Origin: Mycolicibacterium madagascariense
GTDB taxonomy: Bacteria > Actinomycetota > Actinomycetes > Mycobacteriales > Mycobacteriaceae
NCBI RefSeq assembly: GCF_010729665.1
Contig: NZ_AP022610.1
Span: 4,154,001 to 4,218,000, forward strand
DNA length: 64,000 nt
Reading direction: 5' to 3'
Below, in pieces: positions 18,723-37,521 of the stretch. How positions within the stretch are numbered: position 1 is the first letter of the stretch; each line of letters opens with the position of its first letter. The position numbers were made by a program, and so were the translations under genes. The notes beneath the pieces were generated by a model that searched no databases, was not told where the DNA came from, and saw nothing but the letters and a program-made list of their open reading frames with translations.

Positions 18723-18744
18723 GTGATCTCTCCCCACGTTCGGA

Positions 18745-18760
18745 TGGAAATGCCGTTCTC
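18745..18760 (-). promoter_or_regulatory. Weak GAGAA-type motif upstream of mhpC
   Basis: Reads GAGAACGGCATTTCCA on the minus strand, 12 of 16 positions like the site at 23865-23880. It lies 22 bases before the mhpC start. May be a divergent member of the island operator set or chance. Confidence 0.3.
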
Positions 18761-18777
18761 TTTTATTGCAATCATTC

Positions 18778-18794
18778 TGTGCTAATATCGCACA
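18778..18794. promoter_or_regulatory. Probable IclR operator, divergent mhp/iclR promoter
   Basis: Inverted repeat TGTGC-TAATATC-GCACA, arms fully complementary, midway between the divergent mhpC and iclR start codons. The 107-base gap also carries AT-rich promoter-like sequence (TTTTATTGCAATC). Placement and symmetry fit control of both directions by the adjacent IclR protein. Confidence 0.6.
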
Positions 18795-18829
18795 GTGACG
18801 TGCACTATCCATAGAGCATCACTCTCGCG

Positions 18830-19537
18830 ATGACGTCTGTCAAGCAACCGGGCCTGGCCGCCGATCGACTCGCCGCCGGCTCGCAAACGCTGGCCAGGGG
18901 CCTCACCGCGCTGCAGGCGGTCGCGAACTCACCCGCCGGGATGACCGCCCAGCAAGTGGCCGACCACGTGGGCGTGCACCGGACGATCGCCTATCGACTG
19001 CTGTCCACGCTGTCGCAGAACCGCTACCTGGTGAAGGGTGAGGACGGCCGCTACCGTCCGGCGGCGATGCTGGCCGCGCTCGGCGCGTCGTTCGACAACA
19101 ACCTCCGGCAGCTGAGCGTGCCGACCCTGCGCACGCTCGCCGACGACCTCGGCACGACGGTGTCGTTGCTCGTCGCCGAGGGCGATCAGCAGGTGGCCGT
19201 GGCGGTCATCGTGCCGACCCTGGTCTTCTACCAACTGTCGTTCCACGAGGGCAGCCGTCACCCGCTGGACCGCGGCGCCGCGGGCATCGCGCTGCTGTCG
19301 AGCATGCCGCCGCGGCCCGGCGAGCGGGATCTGGTGCCGCTGACCCGCGAGCGGGGTTGGGTCATGACCCACGGCGAGGTCGAGCCCGACACCTACGGAC
19401 TCGCCGTGCCGGTCAGGCGTCGACCGCCGTCACCGCCCACGTGCATCAATCTGATCTCCCACCGCGAGGATGCGCTGATCGGCGGGCGCGACGCGGTCAT
19501 CGAAGCCGCCCAACGGCTTTCGGAAATCCTGGGCTGA
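18830..19537 (+). CDS. IclR-family transcriptional regulator
   Basis: 235 residues. N-terminal winged HTH (ALQAVANSPAGMTAQQVADHVGVHRTIAYRLLSTL, about 28-62), then the IclR effector domain (LRTLADDLGTTVSLLVAEGDQQV; HPLDRGAAGIALL). IclR proteins commonly control aromatic and phenylpropionate catabolism (MhpR is one), and this gene is divergent from mhpCAB. It is followed after 14 bases by a flavoprotein gene on the same strand. The effector is likely an aromatic acid (inference). Confidence 0.88.
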   Translation: MTSVKQPGLAADRLAAGSQTLARGLTALQAVANSPAGMTAQQVADHVGVHRTIAYRLLSTLSQNRYLVKGEDGRYRPAAMLAALGASFDNNLRQLSVPTLRTLADDLGTTVSLLVAEGDQQVAVAVIVPTLVFYQLSFHEGSRHPLDRGAAGIALLSSMPPRPGERDLVPLTRERGWVMTHGEVEPDTYGLAVPVRRRPPSPPTCINLISHREDALIGGRDAVIEAAQRLSEILG

Positions 19538-19551
19538 CGAAGGAGTGAGTG

Positions 19552-22229: not shown

Positions 22230-23375
22230 TCAGAGCGACAGGAGGGTGGCCGACGCCGTGCCCGGCGCGCCGTAGACCTGGGCCAGGCCGACCCGGGGCG
22301 CACCCGGCACCTGGCGTTCACCGGCTTCGCCGCGCAGCTGGCGCACCAGCTCGTGCATCTGTCGCAGTCCCGATGCGCCGATGGGTTCGCCGTTGGCGAT
22401 CAGGCCGCCGTCGGTGTTGACCGGTATCGAGCCGCCGATCTCGGTGGCGCCGTCGGCGATCAGCTTCTCCTGGTCGCCGTGGGCGCACAGTCCCGTCTCG
22501 GCCATGTGGATGACCTCGGCGCCGGCGTCGGTGTCCTGCAGCTGCGCGACGTCGACGTCCTCGGGTCCGATGCCGGCGATCTCGTAGGCGGCGCGCGCGG
22601 CGTACACCGTCGGCGAGAGATCCTCGTCGAGCGGCGCCGACGTGGCGTGGACCTCGTACGCGCCGAAGCGACGGGTGCGAATCTCGCTGGCGCGCACGAA
22701 CACCGGCTTGTCGGTGTAGCGGTGCGCGATGTCGGCGCGGCACATGATCACCGCCGCCGCACCCTCGTCGGGCGCGCAGAACATGTACTGGCGCAACGGG
22801 TAGTTGAGCACCGGGGACGCCATGATCTCCTCGACCGAGATCTCCTTGCGGCGAAAGGCGTTGGGATTCTTCACGCCGTTGCGGAAGTTCTTGTTGGCCA
22901 CCCGCGCCAGGGTCTCCTCGGAGATACCGTGCTGGTGCAGGTAGTGATTGGCCTTCATGCCGAAGAACTTGGTGGTGACGAACTGCCCGTTCTGCGCATA
23001 CCACTGCGGCAGGGCGAGTTTGGCCGGGTCGTCGGTGAACGCACCGCGGGGGTGCTTGTCCAGGCCGACCGCGACGCCGATGTCGTACTTGCCCAGCCGG
23101 ATGGTGTCGGCGGTCTGCTGGATGGCGCTGGCCGAGGTCGCGCAGGCGTTGAAGACGTTGGTGAAGGTGATGCCGGTGAGGCCGACGAGCCGCGTCACGG
23201 AGTCGGGGTTGGACACCTCGTAACTCCCGCCGAAGCCGAACTGCACGTCTTCCCAGGCGATTCCGGCATCGCCGAGCGCGGCGCGGATGGCCTGCGCGCC
23301 CATCTCCACGGCCGACGTGTCGAAGCGGCCGAACGGGTGGATGCCGACGCCGATGATGGCTACGTCATTGCTCAT
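22230..23375 (-). CDS. Thiolase-fold (lipid-transfer type) protein, non-canonical site
   Basis: 381 residues. Nucleophile Cys78 is present in NACATSASA. The usual GHP histidine motif reads NGEPIGASG (Glu near 330), and the C-terminal CxG cysteine loop reads YGAPGTASA. So of the thiolase triad only the first Cys remains. Known: mycobacterial Ltp-type proteins with altered triads partner with DUF35 proteins, and Ltp2 is a retro-aldolase in sterol side-chain breakdown. The adjacent, ATGA-overlapping DUF35 gene supports such a complex. Start ATG at 23375. Confidence 0.87.
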   Translation of the reverse strand: MSNDVAIIGVGIHPFGRFDTSAVEMGAQAIRAALGDAGIAWEDVQFGFGGSYEVSNPDSVTRLVGLTGITFTNVFNACATSASAIQQTADTIRLGKYDIGVAVGLDKHPRGAFTDDPAKLALPQWYAQNGQFVTTKFFGMKANHYLHQHGISEETLARVANKNFRNGVKNPNAFRRKEISVEEIMASPVLNYPLRQYMFCAPDEGAAAVIMCRADIAHRYTDKPVFVRASEIRTRRFGAYEVHATSAPLDEDLSPTVYAARAAYEIAGIGPEDVDVAQLQDTDAGAEVIHMAETGLCAHGDQEKLIADGATEIGGSIPVNTDGGLIANGEPIGASGLRQMHELVRQLRGEAGERQVPGAPRVGLAQVYGAPGTASATLLSL

Positions 23376-23803
23376 TGCGGGCTCCCTGTCTGAACCGGCT
23401 GGAACGCAAAGGTGACGATCTCGTTGCCCTCGGCGTCGGTGGCGAACGGGATGAACGTCAGCTCGACCTCCATTCCGAACGACAGCTTGGCCGGGTCGTT
23501 CTCCGTCAGCCGACCCTCGACGCGCACGACGTCGTCGAGTTGCACCAGGCCGACGCCGAACGGCACGAAGTCCTTGCCGGTGGGGCCGATGTAGGGTGCC
23601 CCGGGCGCGAAGCCCTGCGTCGTCCACGCGATCACGGTGCCCCGCCGCGGCAGCAGCACATCGCTCATCTGCGCCCTACTGCACTTGGGGCAGTGCGACT
23701 GCCGGGGGAACACCGTTGCCCCGCACGCGCCGCATCCGCTGCCGACGAGCCGAGCGTCCTCCTCCGGCCACGTCGAGATGCTGGCATCCATCGCCTTCTG
23801 CAC
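23372..23803 (-). CDS. DUF35 Zn-ribbon/OB-fold protein, partner of thiolase-like enzyme
   Basis: 143 residues. N-terminal zinc ribbon CGACGATVFPRQSHCPKC (two CxxC pairs) followed by an OB-fold (GTVIAWTTQGFAPGAPYIGPTGKDFVPFGVGLVQL). DUF35 proteins bind CoA thioesters and join thiolase-like or MaoC-like subunits into hydratase or aldolase complexes. GTG at 23803 has GAGGAGG just upstream. First gene of the two-gene operon. Confidence 0.88.
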   Translation of the reverse strand: MQKAMDASISTWPEEDARLVGSGCGACGATVFPRQSHCPKCSRAQMSDVLLPRRGTVIAWTTQGFAPGAPYIGPTGKDFVPFGVGLVQLDDVVRVEGRLTENDPAKLSFGMEVELTFIPFATDAEGNEIVTFAFQPVQTGSPQ

Positions 23804-23864: not shown

Positions 23865-23880
23865 CGGTAAGCCCGTTCTC
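23865..23880 (-). promoter_or_regulatory. GAGAA-type island operator motif
   Basis: Minus strand reads GAGAACGGGCTTACCG, between the meaB-like stop (which it overlaps) and the DUF35 start, where a promoter for the DUF35-thiolase pair would be expected. Confidence 0.5.
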
Positions 23881-24751
23881 ATCCGGGGTCGGGCCCGCCC
23901 AGCAGCGCCCTCGTCGCGGAGTAGACGTCGAGTTCGCCGTCGGCCACCCGCTTCGCCAGCCCGTCGAGACCGGGATGGACGCGCAGCGCGCTCTGCGCCA
24001 GTGAGAGCACCTGCGCGCGGGCCCGCGCGGCCCGTCGTTCGGGGTCGTCGGCACGCAGGTGGGCGTCGATGGCCTCGACGAGTTCGGCGATGCCCTCGTT
24101 GCGCGTGGCCACGATCTTGAGGATCGGCGCGCTGGTCTCGGCGTGCAGATCGCGCGCGGTTTGGTCGGCGCCGTCGCGGTCGGCCTTGTTGATCGCGACG
24201 ATGTCGGCGACCTCCAGAAGCCCGGCCTTGGCCGCCTGGATGGCATCGCCGGCACCGGGATTGAGCACGACGACGGCAGGATCCGCGACGGCCGCGATCT
24301 CGATCTCGGACTGTCCGACCCCGACGGTCTCGATGAGGACGACGTCGTAGGACAGCGCGCCGAGCACCCGGATCGCGGCGGGCACGCCCTCGGCCAGGCC
24401 ACCGAGATGGCCGCGGGTCGCGACCGACCGGATCAGCACGTCGGGGTCGTCGACGTGCGCGGCCATCCGGATGCGATCACCGAGGAGCGCGCCGCCGCTG
24501 TACGGCGACGAAGGATCCACCGCCAGCACGGCCACCCGTTTGCCCTGTCCGCGGTAGGCCGCCACCAGCACGGCGATCGTCGTCGACTTGCCCGCCCCCG
24601 GCGGACCCGTGATGCCGATCGTGCGCACCGGGTGGTGGCCGACGACCGCGAGAACCTCGCTGCGCCGGTCACTCTCGATCAGGCTCAGCAGCCGACCCAC
24701 CGCGCGAGTCGATCCGTTGCGCGCCGCGGCGACGAGCTCCTCGATGGTCAT
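23879..24751 (-). CDS. meaB: MeaB/ArgK-type GTPase, B12-mutase chaperone
   Basis: About 290 residues. Walker A GPPGAGKS near residue 52, LAVDPSSPYSGGALLGDRIRM, DVVLIETVGVGQSE (switch/Walker B) and NKAD. G3E-family GTPases of this type load and protect adenosylcobalamin in acyl-CoA mutases. The partner here is probably the split mutase about 9 kb away, although most mycobacteria also carry a meaB near mutAB. Start ATG at 24751. Divergent from an SDR operon across a 17-bp GAGAAT palindrome. Confidence 0.88.
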   Translation of the reverse strand: MTIEELVAAARNGSTRAVGRLLSLIESDRRSEVLAVVGHHPVRTIGITGPPGAGKSTTIAVLVAAYRGQGKRVAVLAVDPSSPYSGGALLGDRIRMAAHVDDPDVLIRSVATRGHLGGLAEGVPAAIRVLGALSYDVVLIETVGVGQSEIEIAAVADPAVVVLNPGAGDAIQAAKAGLLEVADIVAINKADRDGADQTARDLHAETSAPILKIVATRNEGIAELVEAIDAHLRADDPERRAARARAQVLSLAQSALRVHPGLDGLAKRVADGELDVYSATRALLGGPDPG

Positions 24752-24828: not shown

Positions 24829-24845
24829 GGAGAATGTTATTCTCC
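24829..24845. promoter_or_regulatory. GAGAAT palindromic operator (strong)
   Basis: GGAGAAT-GTT-ATTCTCC, arms perfectly complementary, in the divergent meaB/SDR promoter region. The best symmetric copy of the motif found at the other operon heads. Confidence 0.65.
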
Positions 24846-24881
24846 AGATCCGAGAGGAATAGTCGCACGAAGGGGAGCTAC

Positions 24882-25646
24882 GTGGATATCGAGGGCAATT
24901 CCGCCATCGTCGTCGGCGGTGCCGGCGGATTGGGCGAGGCGACCGTGCGCCGCCTGCACGCCGCGGGCGCCAAGGTCGTCGTCGCCGACATGGCCGACGA
25001 CAAGGGCAAGGCCCTCGAGAGCGAGCTGGGCGTCCGCTACGTCCAAACCGACGCCACGTCCGAGGAATCGGTGCAGGCGGCCATCGCCGAGGCGGTAGCC
25101 CTTGGGCCACTGCGCATCTCGGTGGACACGCACGGTGGGCCTGCCAGCGGTGGCCGCCTCGTCGGCAAGGACGGCTCCGCGCTGGCGCTCGACGGGTTCA
25201 AGACCACGATCGAGTTCTACCTGACGGCCGTCTTCAACGTCATGCGGCTGTCCGCGGCGGCGATCGCACAGTCCGACCCCCTGGAGGAGGGCGGTCGCGG
25301 CGTCATCGTCAACACCGCGTCGATCGCCGGCTACGAGGGCCAGGTCGGCCAGCTTCCCTACGCGGCCGCCAAGGGTGGCGTGTTGGGCATGACGCTGGTC
25401 GCCGCGCGCGACCTGTCGCCGCTCGGCATCCGCGTGGTGACCATCGCCCCCGGCACCATCAACACGCCCGCCTACGGCAAGGCCGCCGACCAGCTCGAGC
25501 AGTATTGGGGCCCGCAGGTGCCGTTCCCCAAGCGCATGGGCCGCTCCACCGAGTACGCCCAGCTGGCGCAGAGCATCATCGAGAACGACTACCTCAACGG
25601 CGAGATCATCCGCCTGGACGGTGCCCTGCGCTTCCCACCCAGATGA
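24882..25646 (+). CDS. SDR, 3-hydroxyacyl-CoA dehydrogenase type II-like
   Basis: 254 residues. GGAGGLGEA cofactor motif, VADMADD, NTASIAGYEGQ and YAAAK, with the NTPAYGKA and IRLDGALRFPPR tail of the HSD17B10-like NAD-dependent 3-hydroxyacyl-CoA dehydrogenases. It would oxidise the 3-hydroxyacyl-CoA formed by a hydratase. GTG at 24882 lies 6 bases after GGGGAG; upstream in-frame codons overlap the operator. The stop overlaps the next SDR start (ATGA). Confidence 0.88.
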   Translation: MDIEGNSAIVVGGAGGLGEATVRRLHAAGAKVVVADMADDKGKALESELGVRYVQTDATSEESVQAAIAEAVALGPLRISVDTHGGPASGGRLVGKDGSALALDGFKTTIEFYLTAVFNVMRLSAAAIAQSDPLEEGGRGVIVNTASIAGYEGQVGQLPYAAAKGGVLGMTLVAARDLSPLGIRVVTIAPGTINTPAYGKAADQLEQYWGPQVPFPKRMGRSTEYAQLAQSIIENDYLNGEIIRLDGALRFPPR

Positions 25647-26456: not shown

Positions 26457-27221
26457 TCAGCGCTTGGCCACCAGGCCGTCGACGATCCGGTTGAAGTCCG
26501 GCGTGCCGAACGACACGTACTCCGCGAGATTGGCGTAGTCCAGCGACGCCATGACGTTCTTCTCCAGCTGAATGTTCATCAGCCGCTTGGTGGCCTCGAC
26601 GGCCTGCTGCGGCAGGGCCATCATCTTCTTCGCGCACGCGATGGCCTCGGCGAGCGGATCGGCGACGACGTGGTTGGCCAACCCCAGCTCGACGGCCCGA
26701 TGCGCCTTGATCCGAACGCCGGTCAGCGCGAACTCCTTGGCCTGCAACAGGCTGATCTGCGACGGCCACACCAGCGGGCCGCCGTCGGCGGCGACCAGAC
26801 CGATCTGCACGTGCGGGTCGGCGAAGTGCGCGGTCTCGGCGATGTAGACCACGTCTGAGAGCGCAGCGAGGCTGCAGCCCAACCCGACCGCGGGACCATT
26901 GACCGCGGCGATCACCGGGATGCGGCAGCGCACCATCCCGATGACGAGTTCCCTGCCGTGCTTGATCGTCTTCTGCCGCAACGCCTCGTCGTGCCGCAGC
27001 TCGTCGAGGTAGGTGAAGTCCCCGCCCGCCGAGAACGCCCGGCCCGCACCGGTGATCACGGCGGCGCGCGCATCGGCGTCCTCGTCGAGCGCGGCCCAGA
27101 TCGTGGCCAGCCCGACGTGCAGGGCATCGTTGACGGCATTCAGCGCATCGGGTCGGTTGAGGGTGATGATCCGCAGACCGCCCTCGGCCCTGACGTCGAT
27201 TTCGGCTGGCATGTCATACAT
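26457..27221 (-). CDS. Enoyl-CoA hydratase/isomerase (crotonase) family
   Basis: 254 residues. RAFSAGGDFTYL oxyanion loop and VNGPAVGLGCSLAAL. The catalytic-Glu loop reads FADPHVQIGLVAADGG (His where Glu144 is expected), while AKEFALTG keeps the Glu164-equivalent. This is a common mycobacterial crotonase subtype of unsettled chemistry. Start ATG at 27221 lies one base after the acyl-CoA dehydrogenase stop; ATG at 27212 is the alternative. Last gene of the fadD-fadE-fadE-ech operon. Confidence 0.85.
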   Translation of the reverse strand: MYDMPAEIDVRAEGGLRIITLNRPDALNAVNDALHVGLATIWAALDEDADARAAVITGAGRAFSAGGDFTYLDELRHDEALRQKTIKHGRELVIGMVRCRIPVIAAVNGPAVGLGCSLAALSDVVYIAETAHFADPHVQIGLVAADGGPLVWPSQISLLQAKEFALTGVRIKAHRAVELGLANHVVADPLAEAIACAKKMMALPQQAVEATKRLMNIQLEKNVMASLDYANLAEYVSFGTPDFNRIVDGLVAKR

Positions 27222-27222
27222 T

Positions 27223-28311
27223 TCAGGCCCCCAGTCCCAGGATCCGCTGCGCGATGATGTTCTTCTGAATTTGGCTGGTGCCGCCCATGACGCTCTGGGC
27301 GCGGCTGTACATGTAGGCCTCGAACAGGTCTTTGTCACCGGTGCCCGCGGTGGCGAGCGCGGCGTGCCCGACGGACTGCTCGACCCACGTCATCAACAAC
27401 TTGTCCAACGACCCCTGCGGTCCGTGCACGAGTCCGTCGAGTTGTTCGGACAGTCGCCGCCGCACGTGCAACCGCAGCATCTCGGTCTGCACCCACGCCC
27501 ATGACAACTCCTCCGGTGGGGGTCCGTCGACGCGAGCCGCCAACTGCCGCACCAGCTTTCCGTACCGGGCCGAGAAGCCCAGCGTCGACGGCTCGCGTTC
27601 GTGGCTGACCACCGTCATCGCCAGCTTCCAGCCGTCGCCGGGCGCCCCGACCATGTGATCGGCCGGCACCCGCGCCCCGTCGAACTCGACCTGGCCGAAT
27701 TCCTTGGTGACCCCGCTGATCATCTTCAGCGGCCGCTGCACGACGCCGTCCTGATGCATGGGCACGATGAACGCCGAGATCCCCCTGTGCTTGGGCACGT
27801 CCCTGTCGGTGCGCGCCAACAGCAGACACCAGTCGGCGACGTCGGAGTAACTCGTCCAGATCTTGTGGCCGTGGATCACGTACGCGTCCCCGTCGCGGAC
27901 GGCCGTCGTCGTCAGCGACGCCAGATCGGACCCGGCGCCGGGCTCGCTGAACCCCTGACACCAGCGTTCGGTCCCGTTGATCATGCCGGGCAGGAACTTC
28001 TGTGCGAGGGCCGCGTCACCGTGGTGGCTGAGGCCGACGACGAGATACCCGAGGCTGGGCCGAGCGGGGGCGCCCGCCTTGGCGATCTCCTCGTCGACGA
28101 TGACGTCGTACACCGGTGGAAGATCCTGTCCCCCATAGGCCTTGGGCCACGACGTGCCGAAGAAGCCGGCGGCGTAGAGCGCCTGGTGCCACTCCCCCGC
28201 CTTCGCCCAGTACTCGTCACCGGAGGTGGGGAACCGGCCCTTCTGTTCGAGCAGCCAGCCGCGCAGTCTGCTGCGGAAGTCGGCTTCCTCTGGAGAATCA
28301 CGAAAGTCCAA
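27223..28311 (-). CDS. Acyl-CoA dehydrogenase, large subunit type
   Basis: 362 residues. N-terminal helical domain, flavin-contact motif CQGFSEPGAGSDLASL, KIWTSYSDVADWCLLLART, and C-terminal GGTSQIQKNIIAQRILGL. With the shorter dehydrogenase encoded just upstream (14-base overlap) it should form an alpha2beta2 heterotetramer of the mycobacterial FadE type used for ring or polycyclic acyl-CoAs. It introduces a C2-C3 double bond and passes electrons to ETF. Confidence 0.9.
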   Translation of the reverse strand: MDFRDSPEEADFRSRLRGWLLEQKGRFPTSGDEYWAKAGEWHQALYAAGFFGTSWPKAYGGQDLPPVYDVIVDEEIAKAGAPARPSLGYLVVGLSHHGDAALAQKFLPGMINGTERWCQGFSEPGAGSDLASLTTTAVRDGDAYVIHGHKIWTSYSDVADWCLLLARTDRDVPKHRGISAFIVPMHQDGVVQRPLKMISGVTKEFGQVEFDGARVPADHMVGAPGDGWKLAMTVVSHEREPSTLGFSARYGKLVRQLAARVDGPPPEELSWAWVQTEMLRLHVRRRLSEQLDGLVHGPQGSLDKLLMTWVEQSVGHAALATAGTGDKDLFEAYMYSRAQSVMGGTSQIQKNIIAQRILGLGA

Positions 28312-29113
28312 TGGTCAACTCCTCCAACGTGACCGGCCACGCCTCGGTGGCCGCGAGCACCCGGCGCAGGTACACGTGCGCGAGGCATTCCCAGGTATTG
28401 CCGATGCCACCGTGCACCTGAATCGACGTCTCGCACACCGTCCGGGCCGACCTGGCGCAGTAGATCTTCGCGATGCGGGCGGCCTCGACGGCCTCGGCGG
28501 GCGGCAGCTCGTCGACGGCCCACGCGGCGTGCCGCAGCACGCTGACGCACCCTTCGACGAGCGCGAGACCTTCGGCCAGCAGGTGTCGCACCGCCTGATA
28601 GGAGCCGATCGAGGCGCCGTACTGCTCGCGTATCTTGGCGTACTCGGTGGCCAGGGTCAGCGTGCCGCGAGCGGCGCCGACGACGTCTGCCGTCGTCGCG
28701 GTCAGCGCGAGCGCATACCAGCGCGCGGCGTCGTCGTGGGACAGCTCCGTCAGCTCGGCGGGTGACTCGACCACTCCGGCAAGGCTTCTGGTCAGGTCGA
28801 CCGACTGCGGCTCCACGTCGGGCGCGGCCACCGCGCGACCGAGGCGACGGGTCAGGTCGTCGTGCAGGACGGGCCCGAGGAAGGGCACGTCGACGAGCCC
28901 GCGGGCGAATTCCTCGGCGACGAGGGCGACGTCGACGCCCGACGCGTCGTCGGAGCGCAGCGACCGCCAGCCCGTCGAGTCGACGGTCTTCTCCAGACGC
29001 GCCAAGCGCCCGTCGTCGTCGAGATCGGCGACCGATCCCGGCCCGAGGTCGTCGGCCAGTTTGGCCGCGGCCTCGCGCAGTTGTCGTTGTTCGGAGGTCA
29101 GACGGACGTCCAC
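28298..29113 (-). CDS. Acyl-CoA dehydrogenase, short partner subunit
   Basis: 271 residues, well below the usual 380. The N-terminal domain is reduced and the flavin/substrate motif SEPGAGSD is absent; the C-terminal domain is intact with IREQYGASIGSYQAVRH and QVHGGIGNTWECLAHVYLRR. Such short subunits are stable only with a full-length partner, here the coupled downstream gene. GTG at 29113 overlaps the AMP-ligase end by 16 bases. Confidence 0.87.
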   Translation of the reverse strand: MDVRLTSEQRQLREAAAKLADDLGPGSVADLDDDGRLARLEKTVDSTGWRSLRSDDASGVDVALVAEEFARGLVDVPFLGPVLHDDLTRRLGRAVAAPDVEPQSVDLTRSLAGVVESPAELTELSHDDAARWYALALTATTADVVGAARGTLTLATEYAKIREQYGASIGSYQAVRHLLAEGLALVEGCVSVLRHAAWAVDELPPAEAVEAARIAKIYCARSARTVCETSIQVHGGIGNTWECLAHVYLRRVLAATEAWPVTLEELTIGLS

Positions 29114-30495
29114 AGTCGCTCCTTGAGCACTCGGCGCAACACCTTTCCGGAAGGCAGACGGGGGATTTCGGGGACGAACACCACGTGGCTCGGCCTCTTG
29201 TAGGTGGCCAGCCGGTCGGCGACGAGGCCGATGAGTTCCTCGGCCGCCACCCCGCTGCGGCAAGCGACCGCCGCGACGATGGCCTCGCCGTCGGCATGGT
29301 CCGGCACCCCGAACACCGCGCAGTCGGCGACCGCCGGGTGCCCGTGCAGCACCGCCTCGATCTCGGCAGGCGCCACCTGGAACCCGCGGACCTTGATCAT
29401 CTCCTTCGCGCGGTCGGTGATGCGGAGCCAGCCCTCGTCGTCGAGGTGGCCGACGTCGCCCGTGCGGTACCACCCGTCGTCGAACGCGTCCCCCGTCGCC
29501 TCTTCGGGCAGATATCCCGCCATCGCCGACGCGGACCGGACCTGAACTTCACCGGAAGCGTTGGCGGCCAACGGTCGTCCGTCGTCGAGGGACACGACGC
29601 GGATCTCGACACCGGGCACGGCGCGGCCCACGGTGTCCAGATGGCTGCCGTCCAGCGCGGTGCACGCGATCACCGGCAGCTCACTGGCGCCGTACGCACT
29701 CGCCCACCTCACCCCCGACCGCCGCGTCACCTCGGCGGCGACGCTCTGGGTCACCGGCGTGGCGCACCACATGACGTACCGCAGCGAGGACAGGTCGTAG
29801 GACTCCAGGGACGGGTGCGCGGCCAGCGCCAGTGCGATCGGCGCGACGGCCATCTCGATGGTGATGCGATCGGATTCCACGTGGCGCAGCATCTTCTCGA
29901 CGTCGAAGCGGGGGTGCAGCCGCACCCAGGCACCGGCGTCGAGCGCGGTGGCGATGTTGAGCAGGCCGAGGATGTGCGACGGCGGGGTCATGATTTGCAA
30001 GCGGTCACTCGACGAGAGTGCCAGCGCCGCACGCCAATGCGTGATCGCCGTCGCGAATGCGCCGTGGGTGTGCCTGACCGCCTTCGGCATTCCCGTCGTA
30101 CCGGAGCTGAACACGAACACCGCGTCGGCGGCCGGATCGACGGGCGCGAACTCCCGACGGCCGGGGGTGACGGGCTCGTCGAGGTGCAGCATCGGCATCG
30201 ACTCGGCGAGGACCGGGCTGTCCCCGACCGCGTGCGTCGGTGCCGTCAACGCCAGCGCGTGCTCGACCTCGGCGCGCTTCCACGCCGTACTCACCAGGAC
30301 GACCGCGGCCCCGAGCGCCCAGATGGCGTGTACCGCAACGACGAACTCCGGCCGGTTCGACGAGCCGAGGGCGACGCGGCCACCCGCACGCACACCGCGG
30401 TGTTCGAGCGCGGTCGCCATGCCGCTGATCAGTGCGTCGAGTTCGGCCCGCGTGTACTGCCGGTCGTCGAAGGCGAGGACGGGTACGTCAGTCAT
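29098..30495 (-). CDS. AMP-dependent acyl-CoA synthetase (FadD-like)
   Basis: 465 residues. P-loop FSSGTTGMPKAVRHTH, YGASELP, WYRTGDVGHLDDEG, and the C-terminal Lys segment PSGKVLRRVLKE. It forms an acyl-adenylate and then the CoA thioester. First gene of the operon leading into the heteromeric acyl-CoA dehydrogenase, so it should activate the pathway acid. Divergent from the ferredoxin gene across a GAGAAT palindrome. Confidence 0.9.
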   Translation of the reverse strand: MTDVPVLAFDDRQYTRAELDALISGMATALEHRGVRAGGRVALGSSNRPEFVVAVHAIWALGAAVVLVSTAWKRAEVEHALALTAPTHAVGDSPVLAESMPMLHLDEPVTPGRREFAPVDPAADAVFVFSSGTTGMPKAVRHTHGAFATAITHWRAALALSSSDRLQIMTPPSHILGLLNIATALDAGAWVRLHPRFDVEKMLRHVESDRITIEMAVAPIALALAAHPSLESYDLSSLRYVMWCATPVTQSVAAEVTRRSGVRWASAYGASELPVIACTALDGSHLDTVGRAVPGVEIRVVSLDDGRPLAANASGEVQVRSASAMAGYLPEEATGDAFDDGWYRTGDVGHLDDEGWLRITDRAKEMIKVRGFQVAPAEIEAVLHGHPAVADCAVFGVPDHADGEAIVAAVACRSGVAAEELIGLVADRLATYKRPSHVVFVPEIPRLPSGKVLRRVLKERLWTSV

Positions 30496-30548: not shown

Positions 30549-30563
30549 GAGAATAGTATTCTC
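30549..30563. promoter_or_regulatory. GAGAAT palindromic operator (strong)
   Basis: GAGAAT-AGT-ATTCTC, perfectly symmetric over 15 bases, in the 100-base divergent gap between the ligase and ferredoxin genes. Same architecture as 24829-24845. A partial half-site GAGAATATCC lies at about 30528. Confidence 0.65.
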
Positions 30564-30595: not shown

Positions 30596-30904
30596 ATGAC
30601 CGCCGCACCCCGTCCGACCACCGAGGCCGGCGCCGACGTGACGATTCTCCTCGACCGCGCGACGACGACCGTCCCGCGCCGCGCCGGGGAGACCATCCTG
30701 GAGACCGCGCGTCGGGCCGGTCTGACGCCGCCGTTCTCCTGCGAGGCGGGCAACTGCGGCACGTGCATGGCCAAGCTCACCGAGGGTACCGCGACGATGC
30801 GCGTCAACGACGCCCTGATGGACGATGAGGTCGACGAGGGTTACGTGCTGACCTGCCAAGCGGTTCCGGATGCGGGGAACGTGGTCGTCGACTACGAGGA
30901 CTGA
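30596..30904 (+). CDS. Plant-type [2Fe-2S] ferredoxin
   Basis: 102 residues. C49, C54, C57 and C87 in CEAGNCGTC...LTCQ, the C-x4-C-x2-C...C cluster site. Similar domains serve Rieske or flavin oxygenases and steroid hydroxylases (KshB/HmpX tail). ATG at 30596 is chosen over 30575 because CAGGAG is 6 bases upstream. Standalone gene without a reductase domain. Its 3' end overlaps the convergent CoA transferase by 13 bases. Shares its operator with the fadD operon. Confidence 0.9.
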   Translation: MTAAPRPTTEAGADVTILLDRATTTVPRRAGETILETARRAGLTPPFSCEAGNCGTCMAKLTEGTATMRVNDALMDDEVDEGYVLTCQAVPDAGNVVVDYED

Positions 30905-31983
30905 ACCTCCGCGGCGAGGGAGTGCTCGCCGAGCGACGGCGGCGCCCCGTAGGCGGGCCGGGCGCCGACGACGCGGATCGAGCTGCGCACCAGCCGGTAG
31001 TCCCCTGCCGACACCACGACCTCCGGGGTGTCGGCCAGCGCCTCGGGCAGCGTCCGCACCGCGGCCGCCGGGATGCCGAGCGGACGCAACCGCGCCTCCC
31101 ACCCCAGCGCGGTGTCCCCGGCCAGCACCGCCGACACCGTCGCGAGCACGTCGTCGCGGTGGGCGGCCCGCTCGGCCATCGTCGGCCAGCCGGTGACGCC
31201 CGCCTCGGCGCAGAACGACCGCCAGAACCCGTCGTGGGTGATGAACAGCGCCAGATACCCGTCTCCGGTCGAAAACAGTTGCGCAGGAACGTAATACGAG
31301 TGCGCGCCGTTCGGGTAGCGCCGCGGCTCGACGCCGTCGTTGAGGTAGGCCGACGCCCGGTAGTTCAACTGCGAGAGCATGACGTCGCGCAGCGAGACGT
31401 CGACTTGACCACCGCGGCCGGAGACGATCATCGCCAACAGCCCGATGGCCGCGGTCAATCCGGTCGAGTTGTCGGCCGACGAGTACCCCGGAAGCGTCGG
31501 CGCCGCGTCGGGATCGCCCGTCAGCGCGGCGATTCCGGTGGCCGCCTGGATGACGTAGTCGAACGCGGGGTCATCGCCGGCCTCCAGGCCGTATCCCGTC
31601 AGCGCCACGCAGACGATCTTCTCGTTGTGCTTCCGCAGCGCCTGATAGGTCAGGCCGAGCCGGTGGATGCCCGACGGCTTCAGGTTCACCAGCAGCGCGT
31701 GTGACTGCGCCACCAGCTCGCCGAGCCGACGCTGACCCTCCGGCGTCGCGAGTTCCATTACCACACTGCGCTTTCCGCGGTTCAGGCTCGCGAAGTAGCT
31801 GGCGCTGACCTGTCGGGAGATGTCGCCGCCGGGTGGCTCGATCTTCGTCACCTCGGCGCCGAGATCGGCCAACATCATGGTGGCGTACGGCCCCGCCAGC
31901 ATGTGCCCGACCTCGAGGACGCGGATCCCCGCCAGCGGACCGGCGGGCAGCAGCGGAGCGACCGGGGGCTCCGGCCGGGTCAC
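30892..31983 (-). CDS. CaiB/BaiF (class III) CoA transferase
   Basis: 363 residues, single domain. AGIRVLEVGHMLAGPYATMMLADLGAEVTKIE at the N-terminus and PAFDYVIQAATG with the catalytic Asp retained, in contrast to the fused protein at 554-2971. It transfers CoA between acids, probably recycling CoA from a product to incoming substrate. Last gene of the mutase operon; GTG at 31983 overlaps the LLM stop (GTGA). Confidence 0.9.
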   Translation of the reverse strand: MTRPEPPVAPLLPAGPLAGIRVLEVGHMLAGPYATMMLADLGAEVTKIEPPGGDISRQVSASYFASLNRGKRSVVMELATPEGQRRLGELVAQSHALLVNLKPSGIHRLGLTYQALRKHNEKIVCVALTGYGLEAGDDPAFDYVIQAATGIAALTGDPDAAPTLPGYSSADNSTGLTAAIGLLAMIVSGRGGQVDVSLRDVMLSQLNYRASAYLNDGVEPRRYPNGAHSYYVPAQLFSTGDGYLALFITHDGFWRSFCAEAGVTGWPTMAERAAHRDDVLATVSAVLAGDTALGWEARLRPLGIPAAAVRTLPEALADTPEVVVSAGDYRLVRSSIRVVGARPAYGAPPSLGEHSLAAEVQSS

Positions 31984-32972
31984 CGCACCGCCTTGGCGAG
32001 CTCCCCGATGATCTCCCGCGTCCGGTACTTCGAGGCGATGAGCTCGTCGCGGGTGTCGCCGATCGGCAGCAGCCGCACCGACAGATCCGTCACCCCCGCA
32101 TCGGCGAAACCCCGGAAACGCCGCAGGATCGATTCGACGTCACCCGCGGCCAGGAGGTCCCCGACGTTGCGGGCATCGCCGCGGTCGAGCAGCTTCTGGT
32201 AGTTCGGCGACGTCTCCGCTTCGGCGAGAATGCGATTGGCGCGCTCCTTGGCAGCGTCGATCTCGGAGTTGGCGCACAGGCAGACCGGGATGCCCGCCAC
32301 GATGCGCGGCGCCGGCCGTCCCGCGTCGGCGGCGGCCTTGGTGATGCGCGGTGCGATGTGCTCGCCGATGGCGCGCTCGTCGGCCATCCACAGCACGGTG
32401 CCGTCGGCGTGCTCGCCGGCCAGCTTGAGCATGACCGGACCGAGCGCGGCCACCAGGATCGGCAGCGGCGCCACCGGCGGCAGGTCCAGCGGATTGTGCA
32501 CGGTGAAGCTGTCGTTCTCCACGTCGATCATGATTTCCCGGGTCGCTCCGCTCCTGCCCTCCGAGGGTCCCGGGTTCCCCAGCGCAACGTGCAGCACCTC
32601 CAGGTAATCGCGCGTGTAGGCCGCCGGCTTCTCATAGGGCAGGCCCAGCATGTCCTCGATGATCCAGTGGTGCGACGGTCCGACCCCGAGCGCCAATCGG
32701 CCGTTCGCGACGGCGTGCACCGACAACGCCTGACGGGCCAGCGCGATGGGATGCTGTGCCTGCAGGGGCACCACGGCCGTGCCGAGTTCGATCCGCGACG
32801 TGTGCGCGGCCATCAGCGCGACCATCGTCAGGCAGTCGAAGTCGTTGGGCACCTGCGGCATCCACGCGGTGTCCAGCCCGGCCGACTCGGCCCACTCGAC
32901 GTCCTTGACCAGCTTGGCGACCTTCTTGGCCGAGTCCCCGCGCTCGGCCCCGATCATCACGCCGAGTCTCAT
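31980..32972 (-). CDS. LLM class F420-dependent oxidoreductase
   Basis: 330 residues, luciferase-like TIM barrel (TAWMPQVPNDFDCLT, LGTAVVPLQAQHPIALARQAL, LALGVGPSHHWIIEDMLG). The GPSHH segment and overall length are typical of the F420-dependent TIGR03564-type group. Its tight coupling to a B12 mutase (ATGA overlap with the small subunit) is unusual and suggests it prepares or consumes the rearranged acyl-CoA, for example by reducing a conjugated double bond or ketone (inference). Confidence 0.88.
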   Translation of the reverse strand: MRLGVMIGAERGDSAKKVAKLVKDVEWAESAGLDTAWMPQVPNDFDCLTMVALMAAHTSRIELGTAVVPLQAQHPIALARQALSVHAVANGRLALGVGPSHHWIIEDMLGLPYEKPAAYTRDYLEVLHVALGNPGPSEGRSGATREIMIDVENDSFTVHNPLDLPPVAPLPILVAALGPVMLKLAGEHADGTVLWMADERAIGEHIAPRITKAAADAGRPAPRIVAGIPVCLCANSEIDAAKERANRILAEAETSPNYQKLLDRGDARNVGDLLAAGDVESILRRFRGFADAGVTDLSVRLLPIGDTRDELIASKYRTREIIGELAKAVR

Positions 32973-33367
32973 GCGTCCACCTCGTCCGTCAGCGCCCGTA
33001 CCCCGGTCACCAGGTCCTCCAGCGGCGTGCCCGTCGGAAAGACCGCGGCCGCACCGACGTTCAGCAGTTTCGCCACGTCGGCCTGCGGGATGGTGCCCCC
33101 CACCACCACGGCGATGTCACCCGCGTCGGCGGCGCGCAGGGCGTCCACCACGCGAGCCGTCAGGGCGACGTGGGCGCCGGACAGAATCGAAAGACCCACG
33201 AGACTGACGTCTTCCTGCAGGGCGATCGAGACGATGTCCTCGATGCGCTGGCGGATGCCGGTGTAGACGACCTCGAAGCCCGCGTCGCGCAGGGTGCGGG
33301 CGACGATCTTGGCGCCGCGGTCGTGACCGTCGAGGCCGGGCTTGGCCACCAGCACGCGCGTGCCCAT
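32969..33367 (-). CDS. B12-binding small subunit of split acyl-CoA mutase
   Basis: 132 residues: a lone cobalamin-binding domain with the DxHxxG motif as LDGHDRG (base-off/His-on), GLSILSGAH and VVGGTIPQADV. Equivalent to the C-terminal domain of methylmalonyl-CoA mutase or the small subunits of isobutyryl-CoA and 2-hydroxyisobutyryl-CoA mutases. ATG at 33367 shares one base with the large-subunit stop (TGATG); codons upstream in the same frame lie inside that gene. Confidence 0.93.
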   Translation of the reverse strand: MGTRVLVAKPGLDGHDRGAKIVARTLRDAGFEVVYTGIRQRIEDIVSIALQEDVSLVGLSILSGAHVALTARVVDALRAADAGDIAVVVGGTIPQADVAKLLNVGAAAVFPTGTPLEDLVTGVRALTDEVDA

Positions 33368-34956
33368 CAGAACACCACCGGCTGCTGGAATTCGCCCCAC
33401 ACGGCCTTCAGGGCACTGACCATCTCCCCCACGGTGCAGTAGGCGTTGGCGCAGTCGATCAGTCGGTGCATCAGGTTCTCGTCCCCCTCCGCCGCCGAGG
33501 ACAGCGCCGCCAGACTCTCCTCGACCGCCAGGTCGTTGCGGTCGGCCTTCACCCTGGCCAGGCGTTTCAGTTGGACGTCACGGCCCTCGGCGTTCAGCTC
33601 GTAGGTGTCGATGTCGGGTGCCGGTTCGTCGGTGACGAACCTGTTGACGCCGACGACGGGGCGCTCGCCGGACTCCACCTCGTGGTGGATCTTGAAGGCC
33701 TCGTCGGCGATCAGGCCCTGCAGGTAGCCGTCCTCGATCGCGGCGACCATGCCGCCGTGCGCGTCGAGGTCGTCCATGATCTCGACGATCCTGGCCTCGG
33801 TCGCGTCGGTGAGCGCCTCGACGAAGTACGAGCCGCCGAGCGGGTCGGCCACCTTGGTCACGCCGGTCTCGTAGGCGAGGATCTGCTGGGTGCGCAGCGC
33901 GAGCGTGGCGGACTCCTCGCTCGGCAGCGCGAAGGGCTCGTCCCACGCCGCGGTGAACATCGACTGCACGCCCCCGAGGACGGCGGCCATGGATTCATAC
34001 GCCACGCGCACCAGGTTGTTCTGGGCCTGTGGCGCATACAGGGACGCACCGCCGGCGACGCAGCCGAAGCGGAACATCGACGCCTTGTCGGTCGCGGCGC
34101 CGTAGCGCTCGCGCACGATCGTCGCCCAGCGGCGTCGGCCCGCCCGGTACTTGGCGATCTCCTCGAAGAAGTCGCCGTGGGTGTAGAAGAAGAACGAGAT
34201 CTGCGGTGCGAACTCGTCGATGGTCATCCTGCCGCGCTCGACGACGGTGTCGCAGTAGGTCACTCCGTCGGCGAGGGTGAAGGCCATCTCCTGCACCGCA
34301 TTGGCGCCGGCATCGCGAAAGTGCGCGCCCGCCACGGAGATTGCGTTGAACCGCGGCACCTCGGCCGCACAGAACTCGATGGTGTCGGCGATCAGCCGCA
34401 GCGACGGCTCGGGCGGCCAGATCCACGTGCCGCGCGACGCGTACTCCTTGAGGATGTCGTTCTGAATGGTGCCCCTGAGCTTCTCCCGCGGTACGCCCTT
34501 CTTCTCGGCGGCCGCGACGTAAAAGGCCAGCAGGATCGCCGCGGTGCCGTTGATGGTGAAGCTGGTGCTGATCTGGTCCAGCGCGATGCCGTCGAAGAGG
34601 ATCTCGGCGTCGGCGAGCGTGTCGACGGCCACGCCGACGCGACCGACCTCGTCGCCGTACTCGGCGTCGTCGGAGTCATACCCGCACTGGGTCGGCAGAT
34701 CGAGTGCGACCGACAGGCCGGTGCCGCCCTGGCCCAGCAGGTAGCGGTAGCGCTGGTTGGATTCCTCAGCGGTGCCGAAGCCAGAGTACTGCCGGAACGT
34801 CCAGGTCTTGCCGCGGTAACCGGAGGCGAAGTTGCCGCGCGTGAACGGGTAGTGGCCGGGCGGCGGCGGTTCGGTCGCGCGGTCGCCCGGTCCGTACACC
34901 GGCTCCAACGGTATGCCCGAGGGGGTCTGCACCCGCGTTGTGACGTCGTCGCTCAT
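33367..34956 (-). CDS. Acyl-CoA mutase large (catalytic) subunit, divergent pocket
   Basis: 529 residues: the TIM-barrel subunit of an adenosylcobalamin-dependent mutase (TPSGIPLEPVYGPGD, HYPFTRGNF, RQYSGFGTAEESN, TIQNDILKEY, ADPLGGSYFVE). By alignment from memory to P. shermanii methylmalonyl-CoA mutase, Tyr89 and Arg207 equivalents are kept (Tyr57 in RQY, Arg175 in SRGT), suggesting a carboxylated acyl group. Tyr243 is Ala211 beside conserved His212, the CQT segment with Gln330 is CVA, and LHTNS is MFTAA. Those changes imply a different, perhaps bulkier substrate. Start ATG 34956 (MSDDVTT) fits family N-termini. Head of the mutase-LLM-CoA transferase operon; no cobalamin riboswitch seen upstream. 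Confidence 0.92.
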   Translation of the reverse strand: MSDDVTTRVQTPSGIPLEPVYGPGDRATEPPPPGHYPFTRGNFASGYRGKTWTFRQYSGFGTAEESNQRYRYLLGQGGTGLSVALDLPTQCGYDSDDAEYGDEVGRVGVAVDTLADAEILFDGIALDQISTSFTINGTAAILLAFYVAAAEKKGVPREKLRGTIQNDILKEYASRGTWIWPPEPSLRLIADTIEFCAAEVPRFNAISVAGAHFRDAGANAVQEMAFTLADGVTYCDTVVERGRMTIDEFAPQISFFFYTHGDFFEEIAKYRAGRRRWATIVRERYGAATDKASMFRFGCVAGGASLYAPQAQNNLVRVAYESMAAVLGGVQSMFTAAWDEPFALPSEESATLALRTQQILAYETGVTKVADPLGGSYFVEALTDATEARIVEIMDDLDAHGGMVAAIEDGYLQGLIADEAFKIHHEVESGERPVVGVNRFVTDEPAPDIDTYELNAEGRDVQLKRLARVKADRNDLAVEESLAALSSAAEGDENLMHRLIDCANAYCTVGEMVSALKAVWGEFQQPVVF

Positions 34957-35173: not shown

Positions 35174-36025
35174 ATGGCAGGCCAGCAGCACCCGCTCGCC
35201 GACCGCACGCTGGTGGTGTCGGGCGGTAGCCGCGGCATCGGGCTCGCGATCGCCGTCGGGGCGGCCAGGCTCGGCGCCAATGCCGTCCTCCTGGCCAAGA
35301 CGAGCGAGCCACACCCGAAGCTGCCCGGCACGGTGCACACCGCGGTCGCCGAGGTCGAGGCCGCCGGCGGCAAGGGCCTGGCGGTCGTGGGCGACGTCCG
35401 CAACGAAGAGGACGTGCAACGCGCGGTGGACGCGGCCGTCGAGCGCTTCGGTGGCATCGACGTCGTCGTCAACAACGCCAGCGCCATCGCCACGGACCCG
35501 ACCGAACGGCTGTCGGCCAAGAAGTTCGGCCTGATGATGGACGTCAACGTCCGGGGCACGTTCCTGCTGACCAAGGCCGCGCTGCCGCACCTGCGAAACT
35601 CGCCCAACGCCCACGTCGTGACCCTGGCGCCGCCGCTCAACCTGACCCCGCGGTGGCTGGGCGCGCACCCGTCGTACACCCTGTCCAAGTACGGCATGAC
35701 GCTGCTGTCACTGGGCTGGGCGGCCGAATATGCCGACGCCGGAATCGGATTCAGCTGCCTGTGGCCCCAGACTTACATCGCGACGTCGGCGGTGACGAAC
35801 CTCGCCGACGGCGCCGCCCTCCTCTCGACGTCGCGCAGTCCGCAGATCATGGCCGACGCCGCGGTCGCCATCCTCACCAGATCGGCGGCCGAGGTCAACG
35901 GGAAGTGCCTCATCGACGCCGACGTCCTCGCCGAGTCCGGTGTCACCGACCTGGCGTCGCGCTACGGCGGCGGGGACCACCCCACGTGGGACATCTTCGT
36001 CGACGCTCCGGTGGTCGCATCGTGA
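35174..36025 (+). CDS. SDR, HSDL2/citronellol dehydrogenase-like
   Basis: 283 residues. SGGSRGIGLAIAVGAARLGANAVLLAKTSEPHPKLPGT at the N-terminus, VNNASAIA, LAPPLNLTPRW, YTLSKYGM (Y-x3-K) and WPQTYIATSAV. The KTSEPHPKLPGT and PxTxIATAAV blocks mark the HSDL2 branch, which includes citronellol/citronellal dehydrogenase AtuB/AtuG-like enzymes. This hints at branched, terpenoid-like substrates but does not prove it. Stop overlaps the ligase start (GTGA). Confidence 0.88.
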   Translation: MAGQQHPLADRTLVVSGGSRGIGLAIAVGAARLGANAVLLAKTSEPHPKLPGTVHTAVAEVEAAGGKGLAVVGDVRNEEDVQRAVDAAVERFGGIDVVVNNASAIATDPTERLSAKKFGLMMDVNVRGTFLLTKAALPHLRNSPNAHVVTLAPPLNLTPRWLGAHPSYTLSKYGMTLLSLGWAAEYADAGIGFSCLWPQTYIATSAVTNLADGAALLSTSRSPQIMADAAVAILTRSAAEVNGKCLIDADVLAESGVTDLASRYGGGDHPTWDIFVDAPVVAS

Positions 36026-37521
36026 GCATCTCGCTGCTGCTGGAGATGGCGGTGTCGGGCGAACCCGACAGGACGGCGGTGGTCTCCGGCGAGATGCGAC
36101 TCACCGCAACGGAATTGAGCGCGCTCGCCGACGGCGGGGCCGGCGTGATCGCGGCCTCCGGCGCCCAGCACGTCGCCTACGTCGGCACGGGCGGGGCACT
36201 GCTGCCGCTGCTGCTGTTCTCCGCCGCGCGCGCCGCGGTGCCCCTGACGCCGCTGAACTACCGGCTCTCCGCCGACGGACTGCGCGCCCTGCTCGACCGG
36301 TTGCCCGATCCGCTCGTCGTCGTCGACGACGAGTACCGCGACGCCGTCGGAACCGGCTACCGCGTCATGGAGTCGGGCGAGTTCGTCGCCGCCGCGCGCA
36401 CGGCCGATCCGGTCGCCGAGTTCGCCGACCCGGACGCGGTGGCGGTCGTGCTGTTCACCTCGGGCACCACGTCGAAGCCCAAGGCCGTCGAGCTGACGCA
36501 CAACAACCTGACGAGCTACATCACCGGCACCGTGGAGTACGCGTCCGCCGAACCCGGTGACGCCGCGTTGATCTGCGTTCCGCCCTATCACATCGCCGGG
36601 GTGTCGGCCGCGCTGTCCAACCTCTATGCGGGCCGAAAGATGGTGTACCTGACCAATTTCGACGCCGGTGAGTGGGTCAGGCTGGTCGGCACCGAGAACG
36701 TCACCTCGGCCACGGTCGTGCCGACGATGCTCGACCGCATCGTCGGCGTGCTCGACGACACCAAGGCCACGCTGCCGTCGCTTCGGACACTGGCCTACGG
36801 CGGGTCGAAGGTGGCCCTGCCGCTGGTGCGGCGGGCGCTGTCCCTGCTGCCGGACGTCGGCTTCGTCAACGCCTACGGCCTCACCGAGACCAGCTCGACG
36901 ATCGCCGTCCTCACCCCCGACGACCACCGCGCCGCGCTGGCCGCCACCGACGCCGCGGGCCTGCGCCGACTCGGGTCGGTCGGCCAACCCGTCCCGGGCA
37001 TCGAGGTGCAGATCCGCGCGGAGGACGGCACCGTCCTCTCCCCCGGCGAGATCGGCGAGCTGTTCGTCCGGGGCGAACAGGTGTCGGGCCGCTACACCGA
37101 CATCGGCTCGGTGCTCGACGACCAGGGCTGGTTTCCCACCCGCGACGTCGCCATGCTCGACGAGGACGGCTACCTCTTCCTCGGCGGACGCTCCGACGAC
37201 ACCATCATCCGCGGTGGCGAGAACATCGCCCCCGCCGAGATCGAGGACGTCCTCGTCGAACATCCGCACGTGCGCGACTGCGCCGTCGTCGGACCGGAGG
37301 ACCCCGAATGGGGGCAGATCATCGTGGCCGTCGTGGTCCCCACCCCCGGCACCGAACCCGACGCCGAAGACCTGCGCGCCTACGTGCGCGCGCAGCTTCG
37401 CGGATCGCGCACGCCCGACCGCGTAGTGTTCCGCGACGAACTCCCCAGCAACGCCACCGGCAAGGTCCTGCGCCGGGAACTCGTCGCCGAGCTGAACGAA
37501 TCGAGCAAGGAGTCAGCATGA
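36022..37521 (+). CDS. AMP-dependent acyl-CoA synthetase (FadD-like)
   Basis: 499 residues. VVLFTSGTTSKPKAVELTHNN P-loop, NAYGLTETSS, GWFPTRDVAMLDEDGYL (hinge) and ATGKVLRREL with the adenylation Lys. GTG at 36022 overlaps the SDR stop. A second ligase in the island, divergent from the mutase operon. It may activate a different intermediate than the 29098 enzyme, for example after partial side-chain removal. Confidence 0.9.
   Translation: MSISLLLEMAVSGEPDRTAVVSGEMRLTATELSALADGGAGVIAASGAQHVAYVGTGGALLPLLLFSAARAAVPLTPLNYRLSADGLRALLDRLPDPLVVVDDEYRDAVGTGYRVMESGEFVAAARTADPVAEFADPDAVAVVLFTSGTTSKPKAVELTHNNLTSYITGTVEYASAEPGDAALICVPPYHIAGVSAALSNLYAGRKMVYLTNFDAGEWVRLVGTENVTSATVVPTMLDRIVGVLDDTKATLPSLRTLAYGGSKVALPLVRRALSLLPDVGFVNAYGLTETSSTIAVLTPDDHRAALAATDAAGLRRLGSVGQPVPGIEVQIRAEDGTVLSPGEIGELFVRGEQVSGRYTDIGSVLDDQGWFPTRDVAMLDEDGYLFLGGRSDDTIIRGGENIAPAEIEDVLVEHPHVRDCAVVGPEDPEWGQIIVAVVVPTPGTEPDAEDLRAYVRAQLRGSRTPDRVVFRDELPSNATGKVLRRELVAELNESSKESA

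Follow-up and report, generated by a model that had tools for sequence, protein, structure and literature searches.

A 64,000-nucleotide stretch of the Mycolicibacterium madagascariense genome (contig NZ_AP022610.1, positions 4,154,001 to 4,218,000; the whole stretch is called the window below) carries a minus-strand operon headed by the large subunit of a B12-dependent acyl-CoA mutase. The mutase has a rebuilt active-site pocket, appears to form a subfamily of its own, and is co-inherited with a CaiB-type CoA-transferase and a dedicated MeaB-type GTPase. On balance we favour the reading that these proteins make up a module for the isomerisation of substituted succinyl-CoA esters. The substrate would probably be a bulky substituted succinic acid, whose carbon skeleton is rearranged for degradation.

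The operon and the pocket of its mutase

Four intact frames make up the operon, all on the minus strand. They encode the large, substrate-binding subunit of the mutase (33367..34956, 529 aa, PF01642 type), a cobalamin-binding small subunit with the motif LDGHDRG (DxHxxG; 32969..33367, above the TIGR00640 cut-off), an LLM-class oxidoreductase predicted to be F420-dependent (31980..32972, 330 aa, above the cut-off of TIGR03564, F420_MSMEG_4879) and a CaiB-type (class III) CoA-transferase (30892..31983, 363 aa). NCBIfam and PDB comparisons are consistent with the assigned classes of all four proteins. The junctions read TGATG between the mutase and the small subunit, whose start ATG lies inside this motif (an overlap of one base), ATGA between the small subunit and the LLM protein (four bases) and GTGA between the latter and CaiB (four bases), so the coordinates and the overlaps of one to four bases given in an initial annotation of this DNA were right.

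The PF01642 large subunit and the B12 domain with its DxHxxG motif place the pair in the superfamily of adenosylcobalamin-dependent acyl-CoA mutases. Residue correspondences were taken from HMMER alignments with the methylmalonyl-CoA mutase (MCM) chains 1req, 2xij and 6oxc and with 2-hydroxyisobutyryl-CoA mutase (HCM) 4r3u; among PDB chains the large subunit matches HCM best (498.8 bits, against 461.6 bits for mitochondrial MCM 2xij). In MCM, Tyr89, Arg207, Tyr243, His328 and Gln330 are important residues and His244 is catalytic. The Tyr89/Arg207 clamp is retained here as Tyr57 and Arg175, and His244 as His212, whereas Tyr243, His328 and Gln330 are changed to Ala211, Gly298 and Val300 and the HTNS motif to FTAA. 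The initial annotation had picked out the retained Tyr and Arg, Ala211, Val300 and FTAA, and all of them hold in the alignments; Gly298 is a further change. Isobutyryl-CoA mutase (ICM), IcmF and HCM are marked by Phe or Ile in place of Tyr89 and by Gln in place of Arg207; here these two positions hold Tyr and Arg. HCM, like this mutase, has split large and small subunits, but it carries Ile at position 57 and Gln at position 175. Read from the sequence, the retained Tyr/Arg pair implies that the substrate would carry a carboxylate, and the loss of the three side chains implies that one side of the pocket would be roomier and less polar.

This pocket is fixed among close relatives. In a comparison of 158 loci, A211, H212, G298 and V300 together with FTA were present in 128/128 rows above 75% identity, which represent no more than 107 different genes, since the window's own gene and 20 others are counted twice. 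None of the 30 rows below 54% identity (28 at 48–53%, and two at 41–47% that are both this genome's own mutB) has A211, G298 or V300; they hold Tyr, His, His and Gln at positions 211, 212, 298 and 300, plus HTN. A division as sharp as this is not due to chance. Two homologue searches scored 8000 proteins each, and among the best 120 of each (240 proteins) Y57, C91, R175, A211, the catalytic H212, Y258, G298, V300, F334 and T335 were found without exception, with variation at positions 85, 133, 301, 333 and 336 and one row gapped at 131 and 133. Where these 240 carry names, they are called methylmalonyl-CoA mutase (family) or acyl-CoA mutase large subunit, and the genera listed include Mycobacterium, Nocardia, Rhodococcus, Gordonia, Aldersonia, Blastococcus, Actinomadura and Parafrankia.

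A separate clade in two phyla

Amongst 296 genomes sampled evenly across the phylum, 160 have a match at E 1e-150 or better, but in only seven does it reach 82% identity or more, the remaining listed matches being at 54% or less. Plasmid records gave 427 with a match, all below 60%. Seven of these lie at 55–58%, and one record each from Paraburkholderia, Sulfitobacter, Marinobacter and Diaphorobacter was opened. All four of these Proteobacterial mutases have the same pocket, with Cys at position 336; it is not shared by lower-scoring plasmid matches from Streptomyces and from Methylibium, the latter of which we take to be an HCM.

In a tree of 54 rows, the 11 actinobacterial and 10 Proteobacterial rows fell on one side of a single branch (support 100/94); the Proteobacterial homologues are 56–58% identical to the mutase of the window. 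Outside it were all the sampled MCM (five, including E. coli ScpA), ethylmalonyl-CoA mutase (ECM)-like (four), IcmF (three), ICM-like (eight), MCM-like (11) and HCM (one) rows, groups which, ScpA apart, were named by length, identity and pocket. Support was 100/99.8 when the 17 pocket columns and five long rows (L188, HCM and IcmF) were left out, and in neither tree did the mutase join the MCM clade or the MeaA-like ECM clade. The tree program warned that long branches meet between the actinobacterial and Proteobacterial groups; the partner genes that they share (see below) argue that their union is real nonetheless. These sequences thus appear to define a distinct and apparently uncharacterised subfamily, with pivalyl-CoA mutase (PCM), IaaG and alkylsuccinyl-CoA mutases outside the sampling. 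Both the pocket and the tree bear out the earlier view that this is not a plain methylmalonyl-, isobutyryl- or 2-hydroxyisobutyryl-CoA mutase, and the phylogeny that had been proposed as a check places it outside the sampled MCM, ECM-like, IcmF, HCM and ICM-like rows.

Gly298 is not exclusive to the new clade. The four ECM-like rows, assigned by length and 38–42% identity rather than by name, sit on a separate branch and also have Gly at the His328 position. They agree with this mutase at the positions of Tyr57, Arg175 and His212 as well, but positions 211 and 300 hold Tyr and Gln in them, not Ala and Val. Ethylmalonyl-CoA mutase acts on 2-substituted succinyl-CoA, and a Gly at this position in both groups would fit the accommodation of a substituent. 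A further mutase-like protein (L188, also L201; G056:C110:32949-34502) of 44% identity has a very long branch that joins the tree next to the new clade. Its gene stands beside those for a B12 subunit (61% identity) and acyl-CoA dehydrogenase (ACAD)-like proteins, and with Cys-Leu at MCM Tyr243-His244 it seems to have lost the catalytic His.

Co-inheritance with CaiB and a dedicated MeaB

The mutase, B12 subunit, LLM and CaiB genes occur together in 20/20 same-genus loci, which shows that this strain is not alone in having the operon. From the name of the TIGR03564 model and a passage in PMC10066036, M. smegmatis mc2 155 would probably have it too, its mutase being MSMEG_4881. Its arrangement is conserved across Mycolicibacterium, as the initial annotation had suggested be checked, and also in the other Actinobacteria examined. 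In a set of 101 loci (the window, 20 loci and a further 80, partly of the same species and partly incomplete stretches) the gene caller found LLM in at least 95, CaiB in at least 91 and the B12 subunit in at least 76.

Presence and absence amongst 37 same-genus genomes separates these genes. The mutase was found in 25, CaiB in 26, the dedicated MeaB (at 71% identity or more) in 26, LLM in 27 and ACAD in 28. CaiB and the dedicated MeaB accompany the mutase in 25/25 genomes and occur in 1/12 without it, the exception (G008) being 70% complete and also having ACAD. Two genomes that are both listed as 100% complete (G023 and G030) have LLM, FadD, two ACAD genes, a crotonase and the operator described below; the mutase, CaiB and the dedicated MeaB were not found genome-wide in either, nor the B12 subunit in the fetched stretches, no genome-wide search having been made for the latter. 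The mutase, CaiB and MeaB are thus inherited as a set, which LLM does not require. The unit is therefore CaiB, the mutase, its B12 subunit and a dedicated MeaB (23879..24751, minus strand) about 8 kb away; this MeaB scores above the PF03308 cut-off and narrowly misses that of TIGR00750 (236.7 bits against 240.75).

In the four opened Proteobacterial loci (23–26 kb fetched for each) the order is without exception crotonase, mutase, B12 subunit, CaiB and a MeaB-like GTPase, the last annotated as hypothetical in two loci and recognised by sequence comparison. No LLM gene is annotated in these stretches, and together with its persistence in G023 and G030 this rules out LLM as a core member. The four-gene arrangement first described thus stands for Actinobacteria, whilst LLM is an actinobacterial addition to it. 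Across the phyla, identity is 48–57% for CaiB, 53–58% for the B12 subunit and 43–51% for MeaB; the two other CaiB proteins of the region are only 24–33% identical. The Asp that is catalytic in CaiB-type CoA-transferases is conserved in 5/5 CaiB proteins, aligned with chains of YfdE/SUGCT type, which places them in that family.

An operator and a catabolic island

The actinobacterial unit lies inside a larger catabolic island with genes for ring oxidation and β-oxidation, one operator being common to part of it. An operator-like palindrome, GAGAATNNNATTCTC, occurs in the window between the MeaB and short-chain dehydrogenase/reductase (SDR) genes (24830..24844, GAGAATGTTATTCTC) and between the FadD and ferredoxin genes (30549..30563, GAGAATAGTATTCTC). 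The whole 5.94 Mb genome has seven exact copies, all within 92 kb (genome 4092481-4184563), and no exact copy of the reversed pattern, used as a control. The seven sites would mark a predicted catabolic regulon, for which a TetR-family protein adjoining one site just outside the window (genome 4152634-4153353) is a candidate regulator. Amongst 100 related loci, with repeats of species, the palindrome is present in 85 (145 sites) and the reversed control in none. All 25 same-genus genomes with the mutase hold at least three sites. Of the 12 without it, eight have none and the others have one (G026), five (G008), seven (G023) and eight (G030), an association with Fisher p 1.8e-6 across the 37 genomes if relatedness is ignored. 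Just one of 24 same-order genomes has a site, and a single one. In the related loci the mutase gene is in none of the 25 commonest gene pairs flanking the palindrome. Sites of their own would accordingly tie the FadD/ACAD operon and the dedicated MeaB to the regulon, and the mutase operon would be tied to it by neighbourhood and co-inheritance only.

Island genes matching models above cut-off include those for Mce proteins and a FadD3-like ligase. There are also P450s, a Rieske oxygenase, amidohydrolases, ACAD genes, lipid-transfer and DUF35 proteins, and KstD-like and HsaD-like genes, with HsaD and steroid-dehydrogenase models scoring below cut-off and the general FAD-binding model NF009473 above it. 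The KstD-like/HsaD-like genes, at 13570-15474 (minus), 19549-21165 (plus) and 17859-18812 (minus), point to a module of cyclic-ketone or steroid-like type that lies between operator sites; a gene near them (18830-19537) looks IclR-like by eye only. Steroid degradation as a proven role was rejected, as the steroid models are below cut-off and the KstD-like genes do not adjoin an operator site.

A proposed reaction scheme and its alternatives

The gene set, the fixed pocket, the separate clade and the co-inheritance are direct observations, and from them we infer the chemical steps, their direction and the substrate. By the chemistry of MCM, a 2-substituted succinyl-CoA would give a substituted-methyl malonyl-CoA. 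CaiB would first transfer CoA from succinyl-CoA, or intramolecularly, to a 2-substituted succinate. In the mutase, the free carboxylate would be held by Tyr57 and Arg175 and the thioester at His212, with the substituent in the opened hydrophobic side lined by Ala211, Gly298, Val300 and Phe334; migration of the CO-S-CoA group would then yield a (substituted-methyl)malonyl-CoA. Decarboxylation of crotonase or acyl-CoA dehydrogenase type could deliver an ordinary acyl-CoA for β-oxidation, whilst MeaB would load and repair the cobalamin. The retained Tyr/Arg pair, the opened pocket and the separate clade lend weight to the earlier proposal that the substrate carries a carboxylate but is not a standard one, and is probably bulky.

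For the decarboxylation step the crotonases are of interest. Two Glu positions are catalytic in usual crotonases; the four Proteobacterial proteins keep the first and have lost the second, and the mycobacterial crotonase (26457..27221, minus), a candidate decarboxylase, has lost both. This fits a predicted non-hydratase role, such as decarboxylation. The structure 3rrv, a close relative of the window crotonase (395 bits), is named only enoyl-CoA hydratase/isomerase.

Several observations weigh against the scheme. The AlphaFold model of the mutase, built on a 25-row alignment, is poor (pLDDT 53.7), and the opening of the pocket is therefore read from the alignment only. The best NCBIfam matches of the Proteobacterial crotonases are hydratases, below cut-off, which with the one retained Glu means that these are not clearly decarboxylases; the mycobacterial crotonase is only 27–33% identical to them, so no one gene is conserved for the decarboxylation step. 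FadD ligases surround the actinobacterial unit and may make CaiB unnecessary for CoA activation, and some same-order genomes that lack this mutase have MeaB relatives of 53–59% identity. On its promoter side the mutase has GAGAAT half-sites only (34982 and 35120), with no match to GAGAATNNNATTCTC within one mismatch in the genome scan, so that the mutase itself is not placed in the operator regulon, and three of the genomes above have five to eight operator sites without a detected mutase. TRAP, TAXI or TTT transporter genes directly follow the operon in three of the four Proteobacterial loci, but in Marinobacter the gene for a TRAP binding protein is some 5 kb upstream, past two transposase genes.

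The initial annotation knew of no described pathway with this make-up, which was too strong. The E. coli operon scpA-argK-scpB-scpC is annotated as having a mutase, a MeaB-type GTPase, a methylmalonyl-CoA decarboxylase and a CoA-transferase side by side, and the four Proteobacterial operons share the roles of this Sbm cycle if their crotonase is a decarboxylase. ScpA differs in being the product of a single long gene (2145 bases) and in grouping with MCM in the tree, and ScpC is a class I CoA-transferase, unlike the CaiB type. The module described here differs in its rebuilt pocket and its CaiB-type transferase and, in Actinobacteria, in the added LLM protein. The second parallel is anaerobic indoleacetate degradation, where a CoA-transferase (IaaL) is paired with a mutase for a bulky succinyl-CoA (IaaGH; PMC8360864), IaaL belonging to family III (PMC11659651). 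A literature search found no paper whose title or opening of the abstract names the present operon, most subscription journals being outside that search.

This parallel raises the alternative that the clade comprises the aryl- or alkyl-succinyl-CoA mutases of anaerobic pathways in other hosts, such as IaaGH on (2-aminophenyl)succinyl-CoA or the alkylsuccinyl-CoA mutases. IaaL, a family III CoA-transferase, is described as acting on phenylsuccinate, with IaaGH as the next step (PMC8360864; PMC11659651), so that CoA-transferase and mutase are paired likewise, and a pocket open on one side would suit such esters. We nevertheless regard this as unlikely. The enzyme that follows in indoleacetate degradation is described as a decarboxylating dehydrogenase (IaaF), whereas the extra gene of the four Proteobacterial operons encodes a crotonase, although no search for an IaaF relative was made.

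Somewhat less probable still is a mutase for a cyclic, steroid-derived or terpenoid-derived dicarboxylyl-CoA of the island pathway, which might convert a vicinal to a geminal ring dicarboxylate ahead of decarboxylation. The island, with its seven operator sites, its KstD-like, HsaD-like, P450, Rieske oxygenase, Mce and lipid-transfer/DUF35 genes and its paired ACAD genes, speaks for such a substrate. Apart from the shortcomings of the steroid-type genes noted above, namely sub-threshold HsaD and steroid-dehydrogenase models and KstD-like genes away from any operator site, the Proteobacterial versions have genes for carboxylate importers and no such island within the fetched 23–26 kb, which suggests a small soluble acid. 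An ordinary MCM isoform of propionate or succinate metabolism can be dismissed as very improbable in spite of the retained Tyr57, Arg175 and His212 and the scp-like operon roles, because the genome has separate canonical mutA/mutB-like genes elsewhere with their own adjacent MeaB (46% identical to the MeaB of the window), the Tyr243, His328 and Gln330 positions are replaced in 240/240 listed homologues, and the clade is separate in both trees.

Returning to the substituted-succinyl-CoA module, a broader proposal can be put forward tentatively: that the CoA-transferase, the rebuilt-pocket mutase and the chaperone form a portable cassette for a widespread, undescribed route, by which bulky substituted succinates or ring dicarboxylates that resist β-oxidation would become malonyl-CoA derivatives open to decarboxylation, a new substrate class for B12 mutases; in Actinobacteria the cassette would sit within a large island for ring degradation. 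If the substituted-succinyl-CoA reading is right, mycobacteria, nocardiae, rhodococci and Proteobacteria would possess a B12 mutase of new substrate range with a matching CoA-transferase and chaperone, part of the propionate metabolism annotated in these genomes would be wrong, and the enzyme set could serve to rearrange the carbon skeletons of substituted dicarboxylic acids.

Other features of the window

Downstream of the operon on the minus strand lie a FadD-type acyl-CoA ligase (29098..30495), with no listed NCBIfam model above cut-off, and the two subunits of an ACAD. The first is at 27223..28311; the second, ACAD-like (28298..29113, start approximate), was assigned from its place and relatives, not from a domain scan. 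Between FadD and CaiB is a [2Fe-2S] ferredoxin (PF00111; 30596..30904, plus). Beyond MeaB are a ChsH2-C OB-fold (DUF35) protein (23372..23803, minus) and a lipid-transfer or thiolase-like protein (22230..23375, minus), a possible retro-aldolase partner. The SDR beside MeaB is listed at 24834-25646, with a start that overlaps the GAGAATGTTATTCTC site, so its true start is probably downstream. A second SDR (35174..36025, plus) diverges from the mutase and is followed by another FadD-type ligase (36022..37521, plus). A scan of the window at Rfam gathering thresholds returned no cobalamin riboswitch. Its sole matches were one tRNA and the sRNA family Ms_AS-5, found at 53669-53713 on the minus strand.

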